From positions 1 to 31,739 of IMG/VR virus record IMGVR_UViG_3300030117_000216: a DNA stretch of 31,739 nucleotides; one strand, written 5' to 3'. A model generated the notes under the pieces. That model searched no databases, was not told the origin of the DNA, and was given only the letters and a program-made list of their open reading frames with translations. Source of the stretch: a virus. Position numbers and translations under genes: made by a program. Shown in pieces: positions 758-21,115 of this stretch. Positions within the stretch are counted from its first letter, which is position 1. Each line of letters starts with the position of its first letter.

Positions 758-1162
758 TCAAGTTTTCTTGTCAACCCCATAACTTTCCCTGACCACTTGA
801 ACCCAAGTTGATAGTGACATTTCTGCAACAAGCTTTGGATCATAAGAGAAAGAACGACACGCCGCCATAAGCTGTATCAAGCAACGGATTGGCCTGTTGT
901 TAAATTTGTATATCAGCACTGGGAACCTATCGCCTGATGCCTCACAAGCCTGTTCCCACCATGATTGCTTGTAAGTTGCGCCAGAGGCATAAGCCTTACA
1001 TTCAATAGACCATCCAGGGATTACAATATCAGCCTCACCTTTGATTTGATATTGAGAGAGGTTGCGCTTTGGTAACTCAGGCAATGACTCGCCAAGGTGG
1101 TCTTTGATATAATTTACAATCTGGCGTTCAAAAGCTGCGCCTTTCTGCCTGCTATCTGTCAT
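758..1162 (-). CDS. PD-(D/E)XK nuclease, Holliday-junction-resolvase-like
   Basis: This 134-residue protein has the small archaeal-Hjc-type nuclease layout: an N-terminal helix with Glu12 (KGAAFERQIVNYI), then Asp45 in GEADIVIPG and the Glu54-x-Lys56 pair in WSIECKAYA. In this superfamily these residues bind metal and cut DNA. A Trp/Gln-rich helix (KQSWWEQACE) and a strand (FPVLIYKFNNRP) follow, as usual for the fold. It would resolve branched recombination or replication intermediates before packaging. It is last in the leftward early group and its start overlaps the preceding gene by 11 bases. The nuclease fold is well supported; junction specificity is inferred. Confidence 0.75.
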   Translation of the reverse strand: MTDSRQKGAAFERQIVNYIKDHLGESLPELPKRNLSQYQIKGEADIVIPGWSIECKAYASGATYKQSWWEQACEASGDRFPVLIYKFNNRPIRCLIQLMAACRSFSYDPKLVAEMSLSTWVQVVRESYGVDKKT

Positions 1163-6987: not shown

Positions 6988-7196
6988 TACTTATCACCAC
7001 CAGACTTACCTAAATAAATACCATAAACACCTGTCATAACACCCATAATCACAGACACAAAAGCAGATTGCTGTGTCGTGGGGGCTTCTAAATTCATAAA
7101 CCATTCAGCACAACGCCAACTCATTGCAACACTAGCAACCATTGTTAGCTTTGCCGTTACATTAAATTGTAAATATTTTTTAAACCAATCATTCAT
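6987..7196 (-). CDS. Small membrane protein, two predicted segments
   Basis: This 69-residue protein has hydrophobic segments at about 16-34 (KLTMVASVAMSWRCAEWF) and 44-62 (AFVSVIMGVMTGVYGIYLG), with a short charged end (KSGGDK). The two-segment hairpin layout resembles class II holins or small phage membrane proteins. It lies between a larger membrane-anchored protein and the Cys protein, one gene before the 3TM holin, so it may be a second holin or antiholin. That role is inferred from context. Confidence 0.65.
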   Translation of the reverse strand: MNDWFKKYLQFNVTAKLTMVASVAMSWRCAEWFMNLEAPTTQQSAFVSVIMGVMTGVYGIYLGKSGGDK

Positions 7197-7705
7197 AATG
7201 AAATAACTTCAACACTTCTAGCAATCGTCATAAACATTACAACAAAAAAGAAAATAGCTACCATGAGTACACCGATGATAATAAACGCCGTTTTAATTGC
7301 CTCTGATATTTCGTGTTGCCGTCTAGCCGCTTCAATTTGCGCTTTCTTAATCGCTTCTTTTTGTTCCCTAAGTTTCTGATTATGATGATTAAGAATCTCC
7401 TGCCATGTACTAGGTTGATCGGCTGGTTTAGGCCAGCGCAGATTAATCATTGTAGCAATTTCTTGCATTTGTTCATTAAGTTTTTTAGCCTCAAGAACTG
7501 CATCAATCGAACTACGAATGTTGATGTCACCAACACCAGCCTGTTTATTACGCTCTTCGTTGAGTTTCTTTTGCGCTGAGAATAACGTGCTGATTTGGTC
7601 TGAAATATCTGCAACAGATTGTACGTCATTGATACGAGCCTTGATAAACCCTATAGCATTTGAGGCCGCAGTGACCGCAGCAATAGCTGTGGTTATCGGT
7701 TCCAT
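7193..7705 (-). CDS. C-terminally anchored coiled-coil membrane protein
   Basis: This 170-residue protein has a small-residue N-terminus, a long charged helical region (about 35-130, with KKLNEERNKQ and HHNQKLREQKEAIKKAQIE) and a strong hydrophobic segment near the end (TAFIIIGVLMVAIFFFVVMF). This is a tail-anchored or spanin-like architecture. The start overlaps the upstream stop by one base (TAATG) and its stop overlaps the next gene (ATGA). It lies in the lysis region and may span the periplasm or anchor a complex. No known family is recognised. Confidence 0.65.
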   Translation of the reverse strand: MEPITTAIAAVTAASNAIGFIKARINDVQSVADISDQISTLFSAQKKLNEERNKQAGVGDINIRSSIDAVLEAKKLNEQMQEIATMINLRWPKPADQPSTWQEILNHHNQKLREQKEAIKKAQIEAARRQHEISEAIKTAFIIIGVLMVAIFFFVVMFMTIARSVEVISL

Positions 7706-8276: not shown

Positions 8277-11200
8277 CTATCGGGCATTACTGAATTTAAA
8301 AGGTTGGTCAGCAAAGGCGAGGTAAATGTAGGTGTCGCCAGAGGCATTTAAACCAGTGCCAGTTTTTCTAGGTTTGAATCCATTTGATAAAATATCAAGG
8401 CCACCGTCTGTGTATTCAGCATTGGTTTCGTTTGCGAGAAGATACCTAGTAACCTCGTTTGATGTATTTCTGGTGCTATCCCATATATGCCAATGACCAG
8501 TGTTGTTGCTCTTTTTTTGCATAATCCAAGCTGGCCTGAACCCTGTGTGAACAAACGGCCCATCTGTGCTTCCGTTTCCAACGTAACTGCCGACCTTTGA
8601 GTAACCCTCAACTGAGTGAAAACAGTAGGCTATGTAAGTGCCACCACTTGCATTTATATTATCACCGTTTGAGGAACCATCTTCTAATGAAAAAGTTGCA
8701 GACGCTAAATTGTCAATCCCACCACCTGAAAAGCTTGAATATGAGCTTTCAGCAAGATTTGAACTAAGCAAAAGAACTTTCCCAGACGATAGGTTTTTAT
8801 CGAGATATTGCCAATGCGCGGCGCTATCTCTGCGTTTTACAAAAAGTGCCTCAATTGTTTGAGATAGTCCGTGAGCAACAGTTGCGCCATCAGTGCCATT
8901 TCCTGTGTAACTTATAATACTAAATCCAGCCGTTGTGTTTATCTGACCCTCACTGTCAATCGTGCCAACACTTGTCGCACTTGCATCGTTGCTGAAGGCT
9001 GTGCCAGCAAGCCAGTTCCAAGCGACAAACGTTTCGCCATTACCATTGATGCCCCCAGAAGAACCGATAGTAAAACCATCAGAATCAAACGAGGTAAAAT
9101 AAGTTGAGTCTGTAGCTTCCGCATCAGTGCTATCGCTCTTTAAATACTTTGTGGAGCCGACAACAGAGTTTGCTAAAAAATGCGGATAGGTGGTAGAGCG
9201 AACCTTTGCCCACACAAAATCAGGGCTGAAACCAACCCCAGTTATTGCTCTTGAACCTGTCGCATTGCCAGTGTACAGCACCGTGTTGAAATGCTCAGTG
9301 CCATCAATGATAGCTGCGTCGGGCAAATTTTGAGAACACAAAGCGAGGAACCCGCTTGGTGGTGCGTACTGAAATGAACCGTGACCTTCTCCATCTGCGT
9401 TACTGTTAGCTGTAGATTTTGCACCAGAAAAAGAACTATCCTGTCCAAAATTAATTCTTACATCCCCTGATGTGCCAGTATACACCCCAATAAAAGGGAC
9501 TACCCCACCGCCAGTTTGAGTAACCCAATCTGCATCAAATGTTGCTTGTGGATTTGAACCAGCGGCAGGATCACCACTGTTAATATAAGTGCCATTGACT
9601 GAAATAAATGCTTTTCCATTGTCAGCATCAATAGCAAACCCAAGAATAGTTTCTGATGTCTGGGCTGATACCCCAGTCGCATCAGTCGATGTCCAAGCTG
9701 GTGTTCTAAAACTTGTGGCGTTAGTGATGTACAAAAATTTATCACTGGAACCTGTTGCACCAGAGTTGGCAAAACTATCTTTTACTCGTGCTAACCCTGC
9801 TTCGGGATTAGTGCCAGCAGTATAGTATACTTCATAATACCATTTCCCAGATGACATCGCCATATTCCCAATAGCGGCTCTGTCATTAGATGTCTGTGTA
9901 AATTTAGTATTTCCCTCTGACAGTACGGCGGCTGCGGGTAAATTTAGTGCGTTAAAAGTAGCAAAATTATTCGTTGGAACATCAGGCACACTATCCCGAT
10001 AGTCTAGGTTTACAGGTGTCCAATGATTGCCGTTGGTGGTTACATCTTTAAAAAAAGCTGCTTCCCTTGTGTCGGCAAATGCGTGGTAAATGTAAGTTTC
10101 GTTATTTGTATTTGATGTACCATAAGTATTTTTAATTTGAAATCCTGTGGATGTAAAATCTGTGCTATTACCACTATCTTCTGCTGCAGAAGTATTTGCA
10201 TACAATGCTCTACCGCCTGGATTTACTACATTTCTAGTATTATCAAGAATTTGCCAATCACCAGTGTTGTCAACGTTTTTTATCATAATCCATGCAGGAG
10301 CAAATCCTAACGTCACGCTGGGGCCTGTTGACGAACCATTCCCTTCATAACTACCAAAAGCACTATATGAAGAAATTTCTGACCAGCAATACGCTACAAG
10401 ATTTGTTCCATTTGAACCAAATGCAGAACCAAAAGTAAACACAGTGCTAGTAGGATCTGCCCCAAAAACAGTGCCGCTGCCATTAGTTCTTTTTGCACTA
10501 TTGTCAAATTGAAAATAATCATTTGCCCAATTAAAGCCAGTATGCGTATGCCCAATCACCCAAGCTCCGCTACCCCGACTCTTAACTATAATCCACTTTG
10601 GTGCTGCGCCTAATCCATGTGCAACTGTTTGACTATCGCTACCATTGCTCGTAAACGTAACTATACTAAAACCTTTTGTGGTGTTTGCCGATAGCCTAGT
10701 CGCAGCTATTGACCCAGCCAATGCAGAACCAAGATTACTGCCATCTATCTTAACTGACCCTGCTGTTGGAGTTGCCCCTGCCCCAGCAGAGTTGTCGGCT
10801 GTTGGTGCGCCGCCAGCTTCCCAGCACCATGCAACCATTTTATTACCGTCAGTGGTAACATTCCCTGATGTGCCTAATGAAAATCCATCTGCATCAAACG
10901 AAATCATTTCATCGCTGACTGTATATTCAGCGTTAGTTAAATTAGAATATATTTTTTTGTTAGAACCACGAACAACATCAAACCAAAGATGAGCGTCAGC
11001 ATCTGTCCGCTCTTTCAGCCAAACCAACGCTGGTGAAAAACCTAAGCCAGATATAGATTGTGCTGCACCAGTTCCAGTAAAGGTAACAGTATTGAACCCC
11101 TCAGAAACAACATCATCTTTAAATGTCAGATGAAAACCATTGGTTCCAAAAGTTAAGCCGCTAGTATCTTTTGGTATCCAGATACCGTTTTTAGTCTCGC

Positions 11201-11774
11201 CAAAGGAATCGGCAGTTAATTGAGTTCCATCTATAAAGTTTACCTCAGCTATATAACCATCAAATGGGCCTGATCCATTACCATAAGCACCAACAGCTTG
11301 TGCAGAATTATTATTTATTCCTGACTCGCCATTTAAAGTGGTTGCATTAACTTGAGTTAAAGTTTGACGCACACCATTTACATAAATAATTGAGCGTTCT
11401 GATTCAGTTGAATTTGTAGAATCAAATGCCCAGACAATGTGATAAAACGCACTGACATCTCTAAATTTTGTAACTGTTGTATATTGACTGACATAACCAC
11501 CATTATAAAGGTAAGCCCTAATAATGTCAGTATTGTCAAATCGCAAACCATCTTCAATACTGGAACCAGTAGCTCCCATTAAACCTAAATATGCGCTTAT
11601 ATTGCCTCGCTTAACCCAGCCACTCCAAGTCCAAGTCCTGCGATTGCCAGCAGAAGCAGGGGTTCTAGTTAAATACTGAGAATCGTCATCATTAAACTTT
11701 AACGATTGGTCAAGCAGATGGTTGTAAAAGCCTGTGCTTACCTCACCCACGCCTTGTGCTTTAATTAAAGACAT
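8277..11774 (-). CDS. Giant modular receptor-binding tail fibre (LamG, SPRY, repeats)
   Basis: This 1165-residue protein is probably the adhesin that recognises the host surface. Residues about 20-215 (DDSQYLTRTPASAG, TWTWSGWVKRGN, WAFDSTNS) form a LamG/concanavalin-type domain. Six related beta modules follow: a about 225, b about 368, c about 490, d about 828, e about 949, f about 1061. A SPRY-like domain (SSGKWYYEVYYTAGT, FAIDADNGKAFISVNG) lies between c and d. Modules a/d share FNTV and GFSP, b/e share GFSI and TVAHGL, c/f share GNGS, PAWIM and DTRN-type blocks, so a three-module block seems duplicated. The chain ends FKFSNAR. It follows the gp17-like gene, so it may attach to that fibre. 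Confidence 0.85.
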   Translation of the reverse strand: MSLIKAQGVGEVSTGFYNHLLDQSLKFNDDDSQYLTRTPASAGNRRTWTWSGWVKRGNISAYLGLMGATGSSIEDGLRFDNTDIIRAYLYNGGYVSQYTTVTKFRDVSAFYHIVWAFDSTNSTESERSIIYVNGVRQTLTQVNATTLNGESGINNNSAQAVGAYGNGSGPFDGYIAEVNFIDGTQLTADSFGETKNGIWIPKDTSGLTFGTNGFHLTFKDDVVSEGFNTVTFTGTGAAQSISGLGFSPALVWLKERTDADAHLWFDVVRGSNKKIYSNLTNAEYTVSDEMISFDADGFSLGTSGNVTTDGNKMVAWCWEAGGAPTADNSAGAGATPTAGSVKIDGSNLGSALAGSIAATRLSANTTKGFSIVTFTSNGSDSQTVAHGLGAAPKWIIVKSRGSGAWVIGHTHTGFNWANDYFQFDNSAKRTNGSGTVFGADPTSTVFTFGSAFGSNGTNLVAYCWSEISSYSAFGSYEGNGSSTGPSVTLGFAPAWIMIKNVDNTGDWQILDNTRNVVNPGGRALYANTSAAEDSGNSTDFTSTGFQIKNTYGTSNTNNETYIYHAFADTREAAFFKDVTTNGNHWTPVNLDYRDSVPDVPTNNFATFNALNLPAAAVLSEGNTKFTQTSNDRAAIGNMAMSSGKWYYEVYYTAGTNPEAGLARVKDSFANSGATGSSDKFLYITNATSFRTPAWTSTDATGVSAQTSETILGFAIDADNGKAFISVNGTYINSGDPAAGSNPQATFDADWVTQTGGGVVPFIGVYTGTSGDVRINFGQDSSFSGAKSTANSNADGEGHGSFQYAPPSGFLALCSQNLPDAAIIDGTEHFNTVLYTGNATGSRAITGVGFSPDFVWAKVRSTTYPHFLANSVVGSTKYLKSDSTDAEATDSTYFTSFDSDGFTIGSSGGINGNGETFVAWNWLAGTAFSNDASATSVGTIDSEGQINTTAGFSIISYTGNGTDGATVAHGLSQTIEALFVKRRDSAAHWQYLDKNLSSGKVLLLSSNLAESSYSSFSGGGIDNLASATFSLEDGSSNGDNINASGGTYIAYCFHSVEGYSKVGSYVGNGSTDGPFVHTGFRPAWIMQKKSNNTGHWHIWDSTRNTSNEVTRYLLANETNAEYTDGGLDILSNGFKPRKTGTGLNASGDTYIYLAFADQPFKFSNAR
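8280..11103 (-). repeat. Duplicated three-module coding block in the giant fibre
   Basis: Block 1 (about 10075-11103, modules a-b-c) and block 2 (about 8280-9300, modules d-e-f) encode the same three domain types in the same order, separated by the SPRY-like region. The similarity is clear at protein level; the DNA has diverged, so the duplication is old or was acquired separately. Confidence 0.65.
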
Positions 11775-16303: not shown

Positions 16304-18019
16304 TTATCGCCTCAGAATACAAGCTGCACCAGCCCGACTTATTTCTTCAAACTTGCTTGCTTTTTCATCTATAACTGCTGTTTCATCTATAGATTGTTTT
16401 ATGTCTGGCGGCAGAACAGCTTGTACCTCTTCATTCTGCAAATCTTCTTGCAGTCTAGCATTTTCAGCTTCAAACTCATTTAGATCAATTTCTTCGACAG
16501 ATGGGTTATCAGCAGCCATCTCTTCGACAGCTTCTTTGTGTTCTGAAAGTCTGCCAAGATTGTCTGGCTGTAACTGCTGGCTTTCTATAAGGTCTTGTTT
16601 TTGTTGCTCAGTTAAAACACCTTGTTCTGTTTCAACTAAATCAGACGCTTCCTGCAACTGAGTTTGTCTAGTTGCAATTTTTTCTTGTAATTCTTTTAGT
16701 TTTGCCTGTTCTTTAGCCGTAATGTTTTTATTCTTGCGCTTTTCTGCTTTTGCCCTAATTGAATCTATTTCTTTTTGAAACGATGCAATGTCATCTGCTA
16801 ACTCTTTTTTTAAATCTGGGTTTGCTGGGCGTTCTATAGTTTTTCCAGCCCTTCTATCCATTTCTACTTCAATAGCTTTCCTGTCAGTAGTCAGTTTTTC
16901 TAATAAAACTGCATCATTAGACTCTCTGGCTGTTTGTAAGTTTGCTTCTAAATTGGCTATTTGTGTCTTTAGTTCCGCTTCTGTCATAGACGAAACAGCG
17001 GCATCATCTACTTCATAATCTTCATCAAAAGGAGACTTTGCTCTGAGATCACTTGCATCAAGTATTTTTTCTGTGCCATCTACGTCACGCACAGTTATCG
17101 TACCATCCTTACTAATGTCAACAACATCCACCGCTACAGTTGTTCCGTCAGACCTATAGACAATCTTTTTGCCAGCACGTTCTTCTACTGTGGCTATGTT
17201 TGTTTTTTCAACATTATCAGTAATTAAGTCTAATTTTACCTCTTGATCTTGAGCTACTTGAGCAACAGATGTTCTGTGTAAGGTATCTTTAGTTTCTTGT
17301 GGCAGTTTGTTTATTCTGTCTGATATTTTACCAAACCCTGCGTGGAGACTACCGCCTAACCCAGCCCCTAATGCTATGTTCAAGAAGCTATCCATCAAGG
17401 TATAATCATCGTCTTGCTCTAATGCTGCCGCGCCAAAAACAAGAGGCTCTACGACAGCCGCGCCTATCGCGCCATCCATAGTTCCTGTGGCAAATCTGCT
17501 GCCTGTGGTTCTGCCAGCTAGTGATGTTCTTGCCACTTGCACAGGTGATGTAATTTTTGATGCAAGCGTAGCCCCCCTAGCAGCCGCTACAGAGGGAATA
17601 AAAGCTGAAGCTATATTTAGTGGGTCTAATAAACTTCCAGCTAATGCAACGCCAAACTGTGCTGCCCCAAGCCCAAATCCACCCCTTGATCTGCTTAGTG
17701 TTGTCTTAAAGGCCTCTCTTTCGTCATGCCTGTCGGCAAGCAACTGAGCCATTCCCTCTGAGATACCGTCGTCATTTACAGAAAAACCCTCTCTATAGTA
17801 TTCACTGTCCACGTATTCTTCTTTTGTAAGTGTACGTCCTTGTCTGCCCTTTCCTAAATATTGCTCTCCAATACGGCCTAGAGCGTTGACAGGATTATAG
17901 TATAAAGTTTCCTCAAAGGTTGCGCCAAGAACATCTAGTGTACCAGCCTTTGCGTTATCAAAATATTGATCGTGAACATTCTGATCGAAACTTTGCTCTG
18001 GAATATACACGTTTACCAT
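16304..18019 (-). CDS. Internal virion core protein, gp16-like first part
   Basis: This 571-residue protein has a helical start (YFDNAKAGTLDVLGATFEET), a hydrophobic Gly/Ala region around 115-155 (GLGAAQFGVALAGSLLDPL), another at about 210-230 (FLNIALGAGLGGSLHAGFG), and a long coiled-coil (about 345-540). It ends in AACILRR. It resembles the N-terminal section of large T7-like internal core proteins, which enter the host envelope with the DNA. T7 gp16 itself carries a transglycosylase here; I see no such motif. It overlaps the gp15-like stop by one base and is followed by its partner after one base. Confidence 0.65.
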   Translation of the reverse strand: MVNVYIPEQSFDQNVHDQYFDNAKAGTLDVLGATFEETLYYNPVNALGRIGEQYLGKGRQGRTLTKEEYVDSEYYREGFSVNDDGISEGMAQLLADRHDEREAFKTTLSRSRGGFGLGAAQFGVALAGSLLDPLNIASAFIPSVAAARGATLASKITSPVQVARTSLAGRTTGSRFATGTMDGAIGAAVVEPLVFGAAALEQDDDYTLMDSFLNIALGAGLGGSLHAGFGKISDRINKLPQETKDTLHRTSVAQVAQDQEVKLDLITDNVEKTNIATVEERAGKKIVYRSDGTTVAVDVVDISKDGTITVRDVDGTEKILDASDLRAKSPFDEDYEVDDAAVSSMTEAELKTQIANLEANLQTARESNDAVLLEKLTTDRKAIEVEMDRRAGKTIERPANPDLKKELADDIASFQKEIDSIRAKAEKRKNKNITAKEQAKLKELQEKIATRQTQLQEASDLVETEQGVLTEQQKQDLIESQQLQPDNLGRLSEHKEAVEEMAADNPSVEEIDLNEFEAENARLQEDLQNEEVQAVLPPDIKQSIDETAVIDEKASKFEEISRAGAACILRR

Positions 18020-20646
18020 TAAAACAACTTTTTCGTTTCAAAAACTTTATTGAGCCTGTCTTGAATAGTTCGCCCTTGTACGGGCATTTCTGAAAATTCT
18101 CCAGCAAATGACACAACTTTATCAAGGTCAACGGCAACGAACCCACCAAACCCTTCAACGCCATCTTGCGGCACAAAATCTAATGATGCTTTCATCGGAA
18201 CTAAGTTGCCGAGGTGGTCAACTAAAAAAACACCTGTGTTGTCCACGGTTGTTCTCCATGAACCCCCTCTAACCAAATCTCTTAAATACTCGTTTTGGTA
18301 ATCTTTTTCATTTTTCCCCTCTGGAGTTTTTGGAAAAATAATTTTATCCCTCAAATAATTCTGATCTTGAAACGCACTATGTTTTAAAACAGATACCATA
18401 TCTTTAGAAACGCCAGAGAGTTCTTTTGGCAGTCTCATTTGTGATTTATTTATTTCTTCAAACACAAAATGTTTTCCAATAACAGACTCATAAATTAATT
18501 TTACTGCCCCTTCTGGATCGTCTAAATATTGAGGCTGAAATGTCATAAGATGCTTTGCGGCATTTCCTACGGTGTCTTGCATTTGCGAAAGATGAGATTT
18601 TCTTCCTTCGGTTGCTCCAACTCCTACAACACCATCTGCCACACCGCCAACAATGCTAGAACTGTAGTCTCCCAGTATTCGGGTTACGGCTAAGTCTACG
18701 TCTGTTCTAAGAGTTTTTGGTAATCTCTTCTTAAAGTTTTCAATTTCAGGTGCGCTATTGCCATCAACTATAGTCCCCATATTTACATCGTTCGGGTATA
18801 CCGCGCTTAAATGCTCTGCAAAAGTAATTCTGTTTGTAGATATTAAATGCTTCATCACTCTGTTTTCATGTTCAAGACCCTTAGACTGAATAAACTGAAT
18901 TAGTCTTTGGGATTTCTCAGGGCGACTTAAACCCTCTTCATTATAGTTAGCTGTAAAATTAGAAAGTTCTGCATCTGATGTAACTCTTACATCACCTGTT
19001 CTAATGCCCATTCTTAGCTGTATATCTATAAGCTCAGATGGTGATGGCATAGGTTTGGGATTGTTTTCGCTATCAACATTTCTCCTTTGAAAATATCCAA
19101 CAAAATCTTCTTGTATGTTTTTATCTCGTTTTTTTATTGCTTTTCTATAAATCTCTAATGTTCTCGCACCTGTTGCCGTTCCTTTGCCCTCAATTAAAGT
19201 ATTAAGAACAGCGTTCTGTTGACCTAGACTTTCAAATTCTACACTTTTGAATGCTGTTGCAGCATTGGATTGAGCCTCTACTTCTAAAGTTAATGCTTCA
19301 GCTAAGTCTATTCTATCTGCGCTTTTGTAGTCTTGAGCAAGGGCCGCAACCATATTTGCCGTATCTTCACTTACTTCACCATTGTCGCTTTGTATTGCAG
19401 CAGATATTTCTTTTTCTTTTCTAACGGATTGTTGTAAAACTTTCTGCTGCCTCTCTCTTATTTCAACATTTATTTTAGACTCTAACGAGTTTCTTCCAGC
19501 AATACCTTTGACGTTTGGAAATGAAAGAAATTCTCCATCTTCTCGTTTTCCAAAAATCTTGTCTCTCATTAGTTTTAACGCTTCAAGGCTCATTCCATTG
19601 ATTAAATTTGAAGCATTTATAAGAGCGTCACTGTCTGCCTTTGTTTTATCTGACGCTGCCGTTGCTCTCAATTTAGTAATCAAAAAATCCCTGTTAGATT
19701 GTTTCATTGTGCTAAAATCAATGATTATCTCATCACCTTGGTTGGTGGTAATCTCAATTTTATCACCACCCCTAATTTGCTTAACAGCGTCTTCAATTTT
19801 TTCGGGAGTGTCTAAAACACCCTCTTTGTTGTTAATAATTTGCTCGAATACAGCGTCTCTTTCAATTAAATCAACTCTATCTTCAGCTTGGTTGATAACC
19901 CCAAAACGCCTTTGATACTCAGCAGCAGTCAAATTTGATCTATCTTTTTCTAATCCTGTTTTTAATTTATCAATATCGTTTGGTGTGCTTGCCGCCTGTG
20001 AGTCATTTGCAAACGCACTAGCAGATAACTCTTTTTGTGCTGATGATTTTGTGTACTTGGACTTTAAGCCTTGCGCCACAGCATCGTCTATTGAGTTGTT
20101 TAATTGTGTCTGCAAATATGAAAACAGACCGCTTTCTGGATCGGCAGACCGCATCTGTGCAATTGTGTCATCTTGATACTGTTGAAGAACTTGTGACCTT
20201 GTGGCCTGTTGTTTTGTAAATGCGACCTGTGTACCAGTAGCTATTTTAGCGGCTAAATCTGTATCAAACTTTGATTCTATATCTCGTTTTTGATTTCTTG
20301 TAAGGCCAGCAAGATTATTTTTTGATAAATATTTTTTTCTTAATTCTTCACCTTTTACTTTTGCTTGAGCTTGATAGTCTTCAACTTTATTTGCCTCATT
20401 AGCATTGGTAAAATCATTCATTTCTTGGTTAAGATCAGTGGTTATTTGCCGCGAAACTCTAGTAGTTTCTGCGTTCTTTTCCTGCATACCAAATTGAAAA
20501 GCAAGTTGACTTGATGCCTCTGCCAGCCTCATAGTTGCCTGACCTGGCGCAGTGAACGTGCCTATATTTGCCCTTGCCCCAACCCTTGTTGGCGTTACCT
20601 TTTGTGATGGGCCAAGTCCTTGATTATATAGCGGTATCTTCACCAT
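18019..20646 (-). CDS. Internal virion core protein, gp15-like
   Basis: I start at ATG 20646 (MVKIPLYNQGLGPSQKVTPT), because GAGGAAAA lies just upstream and the open frame before it (to 20688) overlaps the previous gene. The 875-residue product is dominated by helices and charged residues (QITTDLNQEMNDFTNANEAN), with no membrane span, as for T7 gp15, which is 747 residues. It would sit in the core above the portal and join the ejected tube. The order gp14-gp15-gp16-like supports this, though overall identity to T7 is too low to see by eye. Confidence 0.75.
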   Translation of the reverse strand: MVKIPLYNQGLGPSQKVTPTRVGARANIGTFTAPGQATMRLAEASSQLAFQFGMQEKNAETTRVSRQITTDLNQEMNDFTNANEANKVEDYQAQAKVKGEELRKKYLSKNNLAGLTRNQKRDIESKFDTDLAAKIATGTQVAFTKQQATRSQVLQQYQDDTIAQMRSADPESGLFSYLQTQLNNSIDDAVAQGLKSKYTKSSAQKELSASAFANDSQAASTPNDIDKLKTGLEKDRSNLTAAEYQRRFGVINQAEDRVDLIERDAVFEQIINNKEGVLDTPEKIEDAVKQIRGGDKIEITTNQGDEIIIDFSTMKQSNRDFLITKLRATAASDKTKADSDALINASNLINGMSLEALKLMRDKIFGKREDGEFLSFPNVKGIAGRNSLESKINVEIRERQQKVLQQSVRKEKEISAAIQSDNGEVSEDTANMVAALAQDYKSADRIDLAEALTLEVEAQSNAATAFKSVEFESLGQQNAVLNTLIEGKGTATGARTLEIYRKAIKKRDKNIQEDFVGYFQRRNVDSENNPKPMPSPSELIDIQLRMGIRTGDVRVTSDAELSNFTANYNEEGLSRPEKSQRLIQFIQSKGLEHENRVMKHLISTNRITFAEHLSAVYPNDVNMGTIVDGNSAPEIENFKKRLPKTLRTDVDLAVTRILGDYSSSIVGGVADGVVGVGATEGRKSHLSQMQDTVGNAAKHLMTFQPQYLDDPEGAVKLIYESVIGKHFVFEEINKSQMRLPKELSGVSKDMVSVLKHSAFQDQNYLRDKIIFPKTPEGKNEKDYQNEYLRDLVRGGSWRTTVDNTGVFLVDHLGNLVPMKASLDFVPQDGVEGFGGFVAVDLDKVVSFAGEFSEMPVQGRTIQDRLNKVFETKKLF

Positions 20647-20656
20647 ACTATTTTCC

Positions 20657-21115
20657 TCACGCCAACAACTGAGCGGTCTTTGATCCACTACTCAATAAAG
20701 TTTGATAAGCTTGTGTTTGCAAGGCTTGTTTCCTTGCATTACCGCCAGCCCTAGCAAGAGCCGCCTCTGAAATTTTTGCCTGTTGCTGCACGTCTCCTGC
20801 AAACATAACTTGCAAAGAGTCAAATTCAGTACTCATATAGCTATCAAACAATGCTTGCAAAGGAGAGCCAGCTATTTGTATTCCAGACGCAGACGTTGCT
20901 TGTCTTTGTGAAGCTACCAATCGTTCTGATTGTTTTCTAAGATTGGCCTCATTCTGCGCAGTTTGAATTTTTAATAATTCTCTTTCTCGTTCTGCAAGTT
21001 GAGCATTATATTCGCCAATTGCTGCTGCTGACTTTGCTGCCCCTTTGCCACCTGTGAAACCCATGACTCCCGAGGCTGCTGTCGCTGCTGCTGCTATCGT
21101 TAACGGATCAACCAT
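20657..21115 (-). CDS. Internal virion protein, gp14-like
   Basis: This 152-residue protein has a hydrophobic Ala/Gly N-terminus (MVDPLTIAAAATAASGVMGF) and long helices with Gln, Glu and Arg (YNAQLAERERELLKIQTAQN, EANLRKQSERLVASQRQATS). SASGIQIAGSPLQALFDSYM is the conserved-looking centre. T7 gp14 is 196 residues, with a similar hydrophobic segment, and forms part of the ejected channel in the outer membrane. Order between the gp13-like and gp15-like genes supports the assignment. One-base overlap with the gene before it (TAATG). Confidence 0.8.
   Translation of the reverse strand: MVDPLTIAAAATAASGVMGFTGGKGAAKSAAAIGEYNAQLAERERELLKIQTAQNEANLRKQSERLVASQRQATSASGIQIAGSPLQALFDSYMSTEFDSLQVMFAGDVQQQAKISEAALARAGGNARKQALQTQAYQTLLSSGSKTAQLLA

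Follow-up and report, generated by a model that had tools for sequence, protein, structure and literature searches.

The window, by which we mean the whole virus record of 31,739 bases, carries on its minus strand a set of structural genes that match head-tail adaptor, tail tubular, internal virion and tail fibre proteins. The only row for a tape-measure protein was weak (E 0.00046, 7193-7705), which together with the structural gene matches suggests a short-tailed phage. Window bases 1-25000 found no nucleotide match in phage records. Elsewhere in the window, a gene for 889 aa that lies amid those for virion proteins (18019-20688, minus strand) had no PHROG match at E 0.1 and weak Pfam rows only, and a putative PDDEXK endonuclease (758-1162, minus strand) exceeded the Pfam cut-off for PDDEXK_15. 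The features considered here are three neighbouring genes, those of an anchor fibre, a large adhesin and a small partner protein.

Table 1. Features of the adhesin locus (positions in the window).
Feature	Position	Strand	Remarks
Anchor fibre, 608 aa	11784..13610	-	N-terminal ~130 residues match PHROG N-termini (tail, tail fibre, tail spike)
C-terminal tip domain of anchor, ~125 aa	11787..12164	-	proposed socket
Adhesin gene	8277..11774	-	single ORF, 1165 aa, LamG-abc-SPRY-abc
N-terminal peptide, residues 1-16	11727..11774	-	proposed plug for anchor tip; covariation
LamG / concanavalin-like domain	11112..11714	-	over Pfam cut-off; laminin LG structures match full model
Module a1 (block 1)	10812..11108	-	97% identity with L004, L014
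Conserved linker a1/b1	10689..10811	-	80-95% aa identity in nine close relatives
Module b1 (block 1)	10371..10688	-	94% identity with L005 only
Module c1 (block 1)	10062..10370	-	
Conserved linker before SPRY	9996..10061	-	86-91% aa identity in nine close relatives
SPRY domain	9309..9995	-	fold match to SPRY domains
Module a2 (block 2)	9003..9302	-	
Module b2 (block 2)	8607..8942	-	
Module c2 (block 2)	8295..8606	-	
Partner gene, 186 aa	7705..8265	-	putative assembly chaperone

Profiles built in this analysis gave the order LamG, block 1, SPRY, block 2 for the adhesin. Pfam DUF7483 (PF24299) covers both blocks in three stretches, with 615.5 bits against a cut-off of 27, and each block corresponds to one DUF7483 domain. 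Laminin_G_3 was found at residues 31-183 with 33.9 bits (cut-off 27.6), and laminin LG domains in the PDB were also matched by the full-length AF2 model of the adhesin (pLDDT 82.1, pTM 0.78). The LamG-type domain that the first-pass annotation had put at the start of the fibre is therefore present, although it lies outside the stretch to which that annotation had assigned it. The SPRY-like domain proposed between the blocks is borne out by the same model, which matches the SPRY domains of DDX1 (TMt 0.77, rmsd 2.9), SPRY7 (TMt 0.81) and TRIM67 (TMt 0.70). For the SPRY region of relatives in the same profile alignment, L040 exceeded the Pfam cut-off (35.7 bits versus 26.3) and L051 fell under it (23.7 bits). 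Since a Pfam search of the window adhesin returned no SPRY row at E 1, we call this part a SPRY-fold domain and not a member of Pfam SPRY.

The two blocks had been described as alike in order and in detail, and a comparison of the protein with itself had been posed beforehand as the check. BLASTP aligned block 1 (residues 224-568) with block 2 (826-1156, converted from half-protein numbering) at 138 of 354 identical positions (39%) with 32 gaps and E 3e-52, and the motifs named earlier fall in register. The view of a, b and c as three kinds of module has to be given up. When the alignment of 56 blocks was cut into a, b and c and the module profiles were compared by hhalign, the scores were 103 for a-b, 94 for a-c and 77 for b-c; 50 column shuffles per pair reached at most 16.3, 18.2 and 15.0, respectively, and LamG, SPRY and reversed profiles 10-15. 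The modules are thus mutually homologous and the adhesin has six copies of one module of ~100 residues, DUF7483 being 330 positions long in Pfam. In the AF2 model of block 2, calculated from 90 sequences with a mean pLDDT of 93.6, the series of strands is similar across the three modules.

Searched against the PDB, the block model gave no match with an E value of 0.001 or lower. A Parkia seed lectin and PCSK9 chains headed the list, but their TM-scores were 0.24 or less and they were discarded; we take both to be three-fold repeat proteins, a likeness that proves nothing. The best VIA-align result for the block (Z 5.2 over 87 residues) was within the range of unrelated beta proteins and was likewise set aside. 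Matches in BFVD were mainly proteins of the same family, the first 17 at 18-46% identity. With the single adhesin protein as query, no solved relative was found by sequence at E 1, and three Mpp10 sequences returned by a profile search of solved structures (E 0.76-0.94) were taken as chance. The earlier description of the modules as lectin-like suits LamG and SPRY, by their folds; for the six DUF7483 modules it is a putative label.

The agreement of the blocks in order and detail could reflect a duplication that took place locally and recently in the lineage of this phage and did no more than lengthen the fibre, a reading against which the identity of just 39% already speaks. In a tree of the 56 blocks, those preceding SPRY and the terminal ones lie on opposite sides of a branch with support 83/99. 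Besides 15 pre-SPRY blocks, the pre-SPRY side includes three blocks arranged in tandem in two cyanophages and the block of one single-block gene; one row labelled pre-SPRY, from L053, in which SPRY was not found, groups with the terminal blocks. Pre-SPRY blocks from different phages are closer to each other than to the terminal block of their own protein, and forcing the two blocks of the window to be sisters costs 152 log units and is rejected (p-AU 1e-73). A recent duplication is therefore rejected by the tree and by the AU comparison, unless it is masked by exchange, and we regard it as scarcely credible. Rather, the duplication is old and the two blocks of the window are old paralogues. 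Nearly all modules keep their slots. Likeness across slots is rare, b1 and b2 being 81-82% identical in two pairs, and the other such rows, at 88-99%, come from ORFs without SPRY in frame (truncated or split).

Comparison with relatives, which the first-pass annotation had asked for, showed that both the number and the position of the blocks vary. The loci were chosen for their similarity to one of four queries (the window, alignment A1, L005 and L006), and two of these searches gave the best 80 of 599 and the best 80 of 190; of 71 matching phage records, 24 were taken. Because loci fetched by likeness make a biased survey, the following frequencies are not those of nature. Among 150 complete, distinct module-bearing ORFs, 67 read LamG-SPRY-abc (LSabc), 36 abc alone and 27 LamG-abc-SPRY-abc (LabcSabc). 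Left out as repeats of the window or of other contigs were L059-L062, L140, L141, L144, L147-L150, L157, L191 and L211, while near-duplicates (L002/L010, L007/L008/L012, L073/L074) remain in some counts. Nine-module forms exist, and the single cases include LamG-SPRY-abc-abc-abc and LamG-a-abc-bc-SPRY-abc, the latter as if a whole block had been set in after module a and before module b. The protein is divided over two or three genes in L025, L026, L038, L043, L044 and L049.

Some of these loci have features of their own. In pelagiphage HTVC202P (L043, 2935-5476) LamG, SPRY and abc are encoded by three separate genes. In L029 (6929-7070) module a and modules b-c are in two overlapping frames where the close relative L028 reads through, owing either to a frameshift or to a sequencing error. 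L021 and L070 have two LamG-SPRY-abc genes per locus, a possible source of intragenomic exchange. Inserts occur at 11 of 239 a-b junctions, at 16 of 94 LamG-SPRY junctions and at none of 241 b-c junctions. Seven of the 11 a-b inserts (L011, L028, L031, L034, L101, L143, L202) contain a mobile domain of ~100 aa, HPLRFS...YYYC..HSGM, which is a separate ORF in L001, L014, L106, L145, L155 and L212. Its only Pfam match was a weak one to Kre9_KNH; its C-x2-H-x2-M spacing is, we presume, reminiscent of type 1 copper proteins.

Adhesins that are otherwise very different can have a single part in common at 85-99% identity. The SPRY domain of the window is 92-98% identical in L001, L002, L003, L009 and L010 and 34-48% in L004-L007. 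For module a1, L004 and L014 are at 97% and the remaining relatives compared at 43-61%, and b1 is 94% identical in L005 and 35-56% in the others. The nucleotide match with L005 spans residues 372-471 (open-frame numbering), a range that nearly coincides with the b1 module at 366-471. Defining a mosaic pair as one having a part at at least 85% identity and another at 65% or less, we counted 87 mosaic pairs and 10 uniformly close ones in 204 ORFs, the pairs not being independent of each other. Most loci are metagenome contigs, so that the mosaic might have arisen in assembly, by the joining of contigs from different phages. This we consider very improbable: the shared parts of the window are 92-98% and not nearly identical, in contigs of different IMG/VR samples, and the same mosaic pattern occurs in cultured Synechococcus phages, RN05-S and RB11-B having 95-97% nucleotide identity before and after a stretch over modules a-b that has been replaced. 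The shuffling of modules that had been proposed earlier is thus strongly supported by sequence comparison at the protein and nucleotide levels. The duplication on which that proposal had been based is not evidence for it, the blocks being old paralogues.

The ends of the shared segments fell inside module cores in 47 of 192 cases, as against 61% expected at random, as would fit an exchange of parts by homologous recombination within conserved linkers. Since the linkers are conserved anyway, segment ends would lie near them to some degree under any mechanism.

The adhesin is accompanied by its neighbours in many of these phages. The tip domain is directly upstream of the adhesin in 17 of 20 LabcSabc loci and, in a larger set that includes the window, in 21 of 28 LabcSabc and 37 of 70 LSabc loci; in the remaining 7 and 33, respectively, it is not directly upstream. 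In all 74 loci where it is upstream of the adhesin, it forms the C-terminus of the anchor. The partner gene directly follows the adhesin in 21 of 21 LabcSabc loci with room for it and in 18 of 27 LSabc loci (window included). Beyond the tip the anchors differ: L002 and L003 are 92% identical to the window over anchor residues 446-609 (open-frame numbering) and 55-56% over a middle stretch, and their N-terminal parts have no match. None of nine structural markers of the window was found in L001-L004, L006 and L007, and L005 had the anchor N-terminus only, all counts referring to partial contigs. All three parts are also present in CRP-406, where the tip matches the end of a 222-aa protein at 50% identity and the partner has a counterpart at 55% identity; CRP-406 is a siphovirus by electron microscopy in passages of PMC12629253. 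The adhesin, the partner and the anchor tip thus recur as a cassette in phages whose other genes are unrelated. In the 62-kb contig L002 a ferredoxin-like PHROG match (1301-1984) lies upstream of the cassette.

The partner had a weak match to tail fibre assembly proteins (phrog_4912, E 0.0039), and two of six relatives had Phage_tail_APC matches under the cut-off (E 0.045 and 0.095). It is a putative assembly chaperone, which may help the adhesin to fold or assemble. The counterpart in CRP-406 (L035, 11424-11966) and the gene after the adhesin in CRP-811 are annotated as N-acetylmuramidase/lysin, a label that the weak assembly-chaperone matches in relatives render doubtful.

The sequence of the tip varies together with the first residues of the adhesin. 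Across 73 loci, the identity of the tip correlates with that of the adhesin N-terminus with r 0.645, or 0.62 with LamG held (0 of 2000 permutations), while the correlation of the tip with LamG is 0.005 with the N-terminal peptide held. By position in the adhesin, it is 0.75 for residues 3-7, 0.74 for 8-12 and 0.37 for 13-17, then 0.23 and 0.15. Over most of LamG it lies at about 0-0.16, except for values of 0.28 and 0.27 at residues 188-207. L007 and L008 are 99.83% identical over 4801 nt beginning 33 nt into the adhesin gene (codon 12) and differ in the first adhesin residues and in their tips (31% identical). Both pairs with tips at 50% or less and LamG at 85% or more have unlike peptides (20%). 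Where the tips are at least 80% and LamG 65% or less identical, the peptides are at least 70% identical in 50 of 67 pairs and below that in 17, so the rule that like tips go with like peptides has exceptions.

That residues 3-12 track the tip and most of LamG (r about 0.05) does not suggests a docking site of the peptide-in-socket kind, and docking of the peptide on the anchor tip is the simplest reading of the covariation. The alternative is that the covariation is physical linkage alone, with crossover just before LamG and no docking at all. The anchor and adhesin genes do adjoin, being 9 nt apart in the window, and the stretch just past the peptide is common to many relatives and could serve as a crossover site. 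However, the correlation drops within about ten residues, with no gradual fade, and at the similarly close junction of adhesin and partner the last two ten-residue windows gave r of only 0.26 and 0.20 (first 110 of 115 fibres). We therefore think linkage without docking rather unlikely.

Taken together, this apparently short-tailed marine phage probably has a tail apparatus of two parts, with the adhesin as its exchangeable arm for receptor binding. The anchor would sit with its N-terminus on the virion and end in the tip, on which the first dozen residues of the adhesin would dock. After this peptide would come LamG, the first three modules, SPRY and the second three, beta-rich domains that probably contact host surface molecules, the partner aiding folding or assembly. 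The role in receptor binding and host range suggested by the first-pass annotation would fit this pattern. One of the PHROG families matched by the adhesin, 'virion structural protein', is filed under head and packaging, as would suit an enzyme or a decoration of the capsid instead of a receptor-binding arm. Another is 'tail fiber protein', the gene lies between a fibre gene and a putative assembly gene, the LamG and SPRY folds are present and Pfam enzyme families gave no match; an enzyme or capsid role is thus unlikely.

Both the shuffling of receptor-binding proteins and second binding proteins docked by a peptide are already known kinds. Passages of Latka 2019 (PMC6872550) describe anchor-branched receptor-binding systems in G7C, K1-5, KP32-like and KP34-like phages, and in K1-5 and its relatives a second binding protein attached by a conserved N-terminal peptide of 7 or 11 residues. 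The present system would resemble those described there in having an anchor and a second binding protein attached by a short N-terminal peptide, a role proposed here from covariation. It differs from them in that the putative socket is the tip at the C-terminus of the anchor, that the arm consists of LamG, SPRY and DUF7483 modules and not of a depolymerase, and that the same tip and arm are found in an apparently short-tailed phage and in a siphovirus. Recent domain exchange between receptor-binding proteins across distant phages is described in Smug 2023 (PMC10684548), in whose main text the words laminin, concanavalin and marine are absent. We likewise see recent domain exchange between putative receptor-binding proteins; unlike the exchange described there, the unit can be a single repeat module of ~100 residues, with conserved linkers between the parts. 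Earlier work had already pointed out LamG and SPRY domains in tail proteins of phages; passages of PMC7824862 give the S-B43 protein QDH50631.1 (L058) as a SPRY example in jumbo phages. DUF7483 proteins of pelagiphages, cyanophages and roseophages have the same domain, often with LamG and SPRY. Searches of the open-licence literature found no paper on DUF7483 and, judged by the listings, none describing this adhesin system.

The receptors and host range of phages of the dominant marine bacteria are poorly known. What Pfam treats as one domain of unknown function, DUF7483, is here three homologous modules exchanged one at a time, and a confident structural model is now available for this large family. 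On a wider view, to which we lean neither for nor against, marine phages of different tail types would share one plug-and-socket adhesin system, in which a short peptide fits each adhesin to the anchor tip of its own phage, modules, LamG and SPRY are swapped singly at conserved linkers, and receptor specificity is drawn from a common pool of module alleles. If specificity resides in alleles of single modules, these could be compared with the host ranges of isolates, and the rule relating peptide to tip, if true, would predict which adhesin fits which phage.
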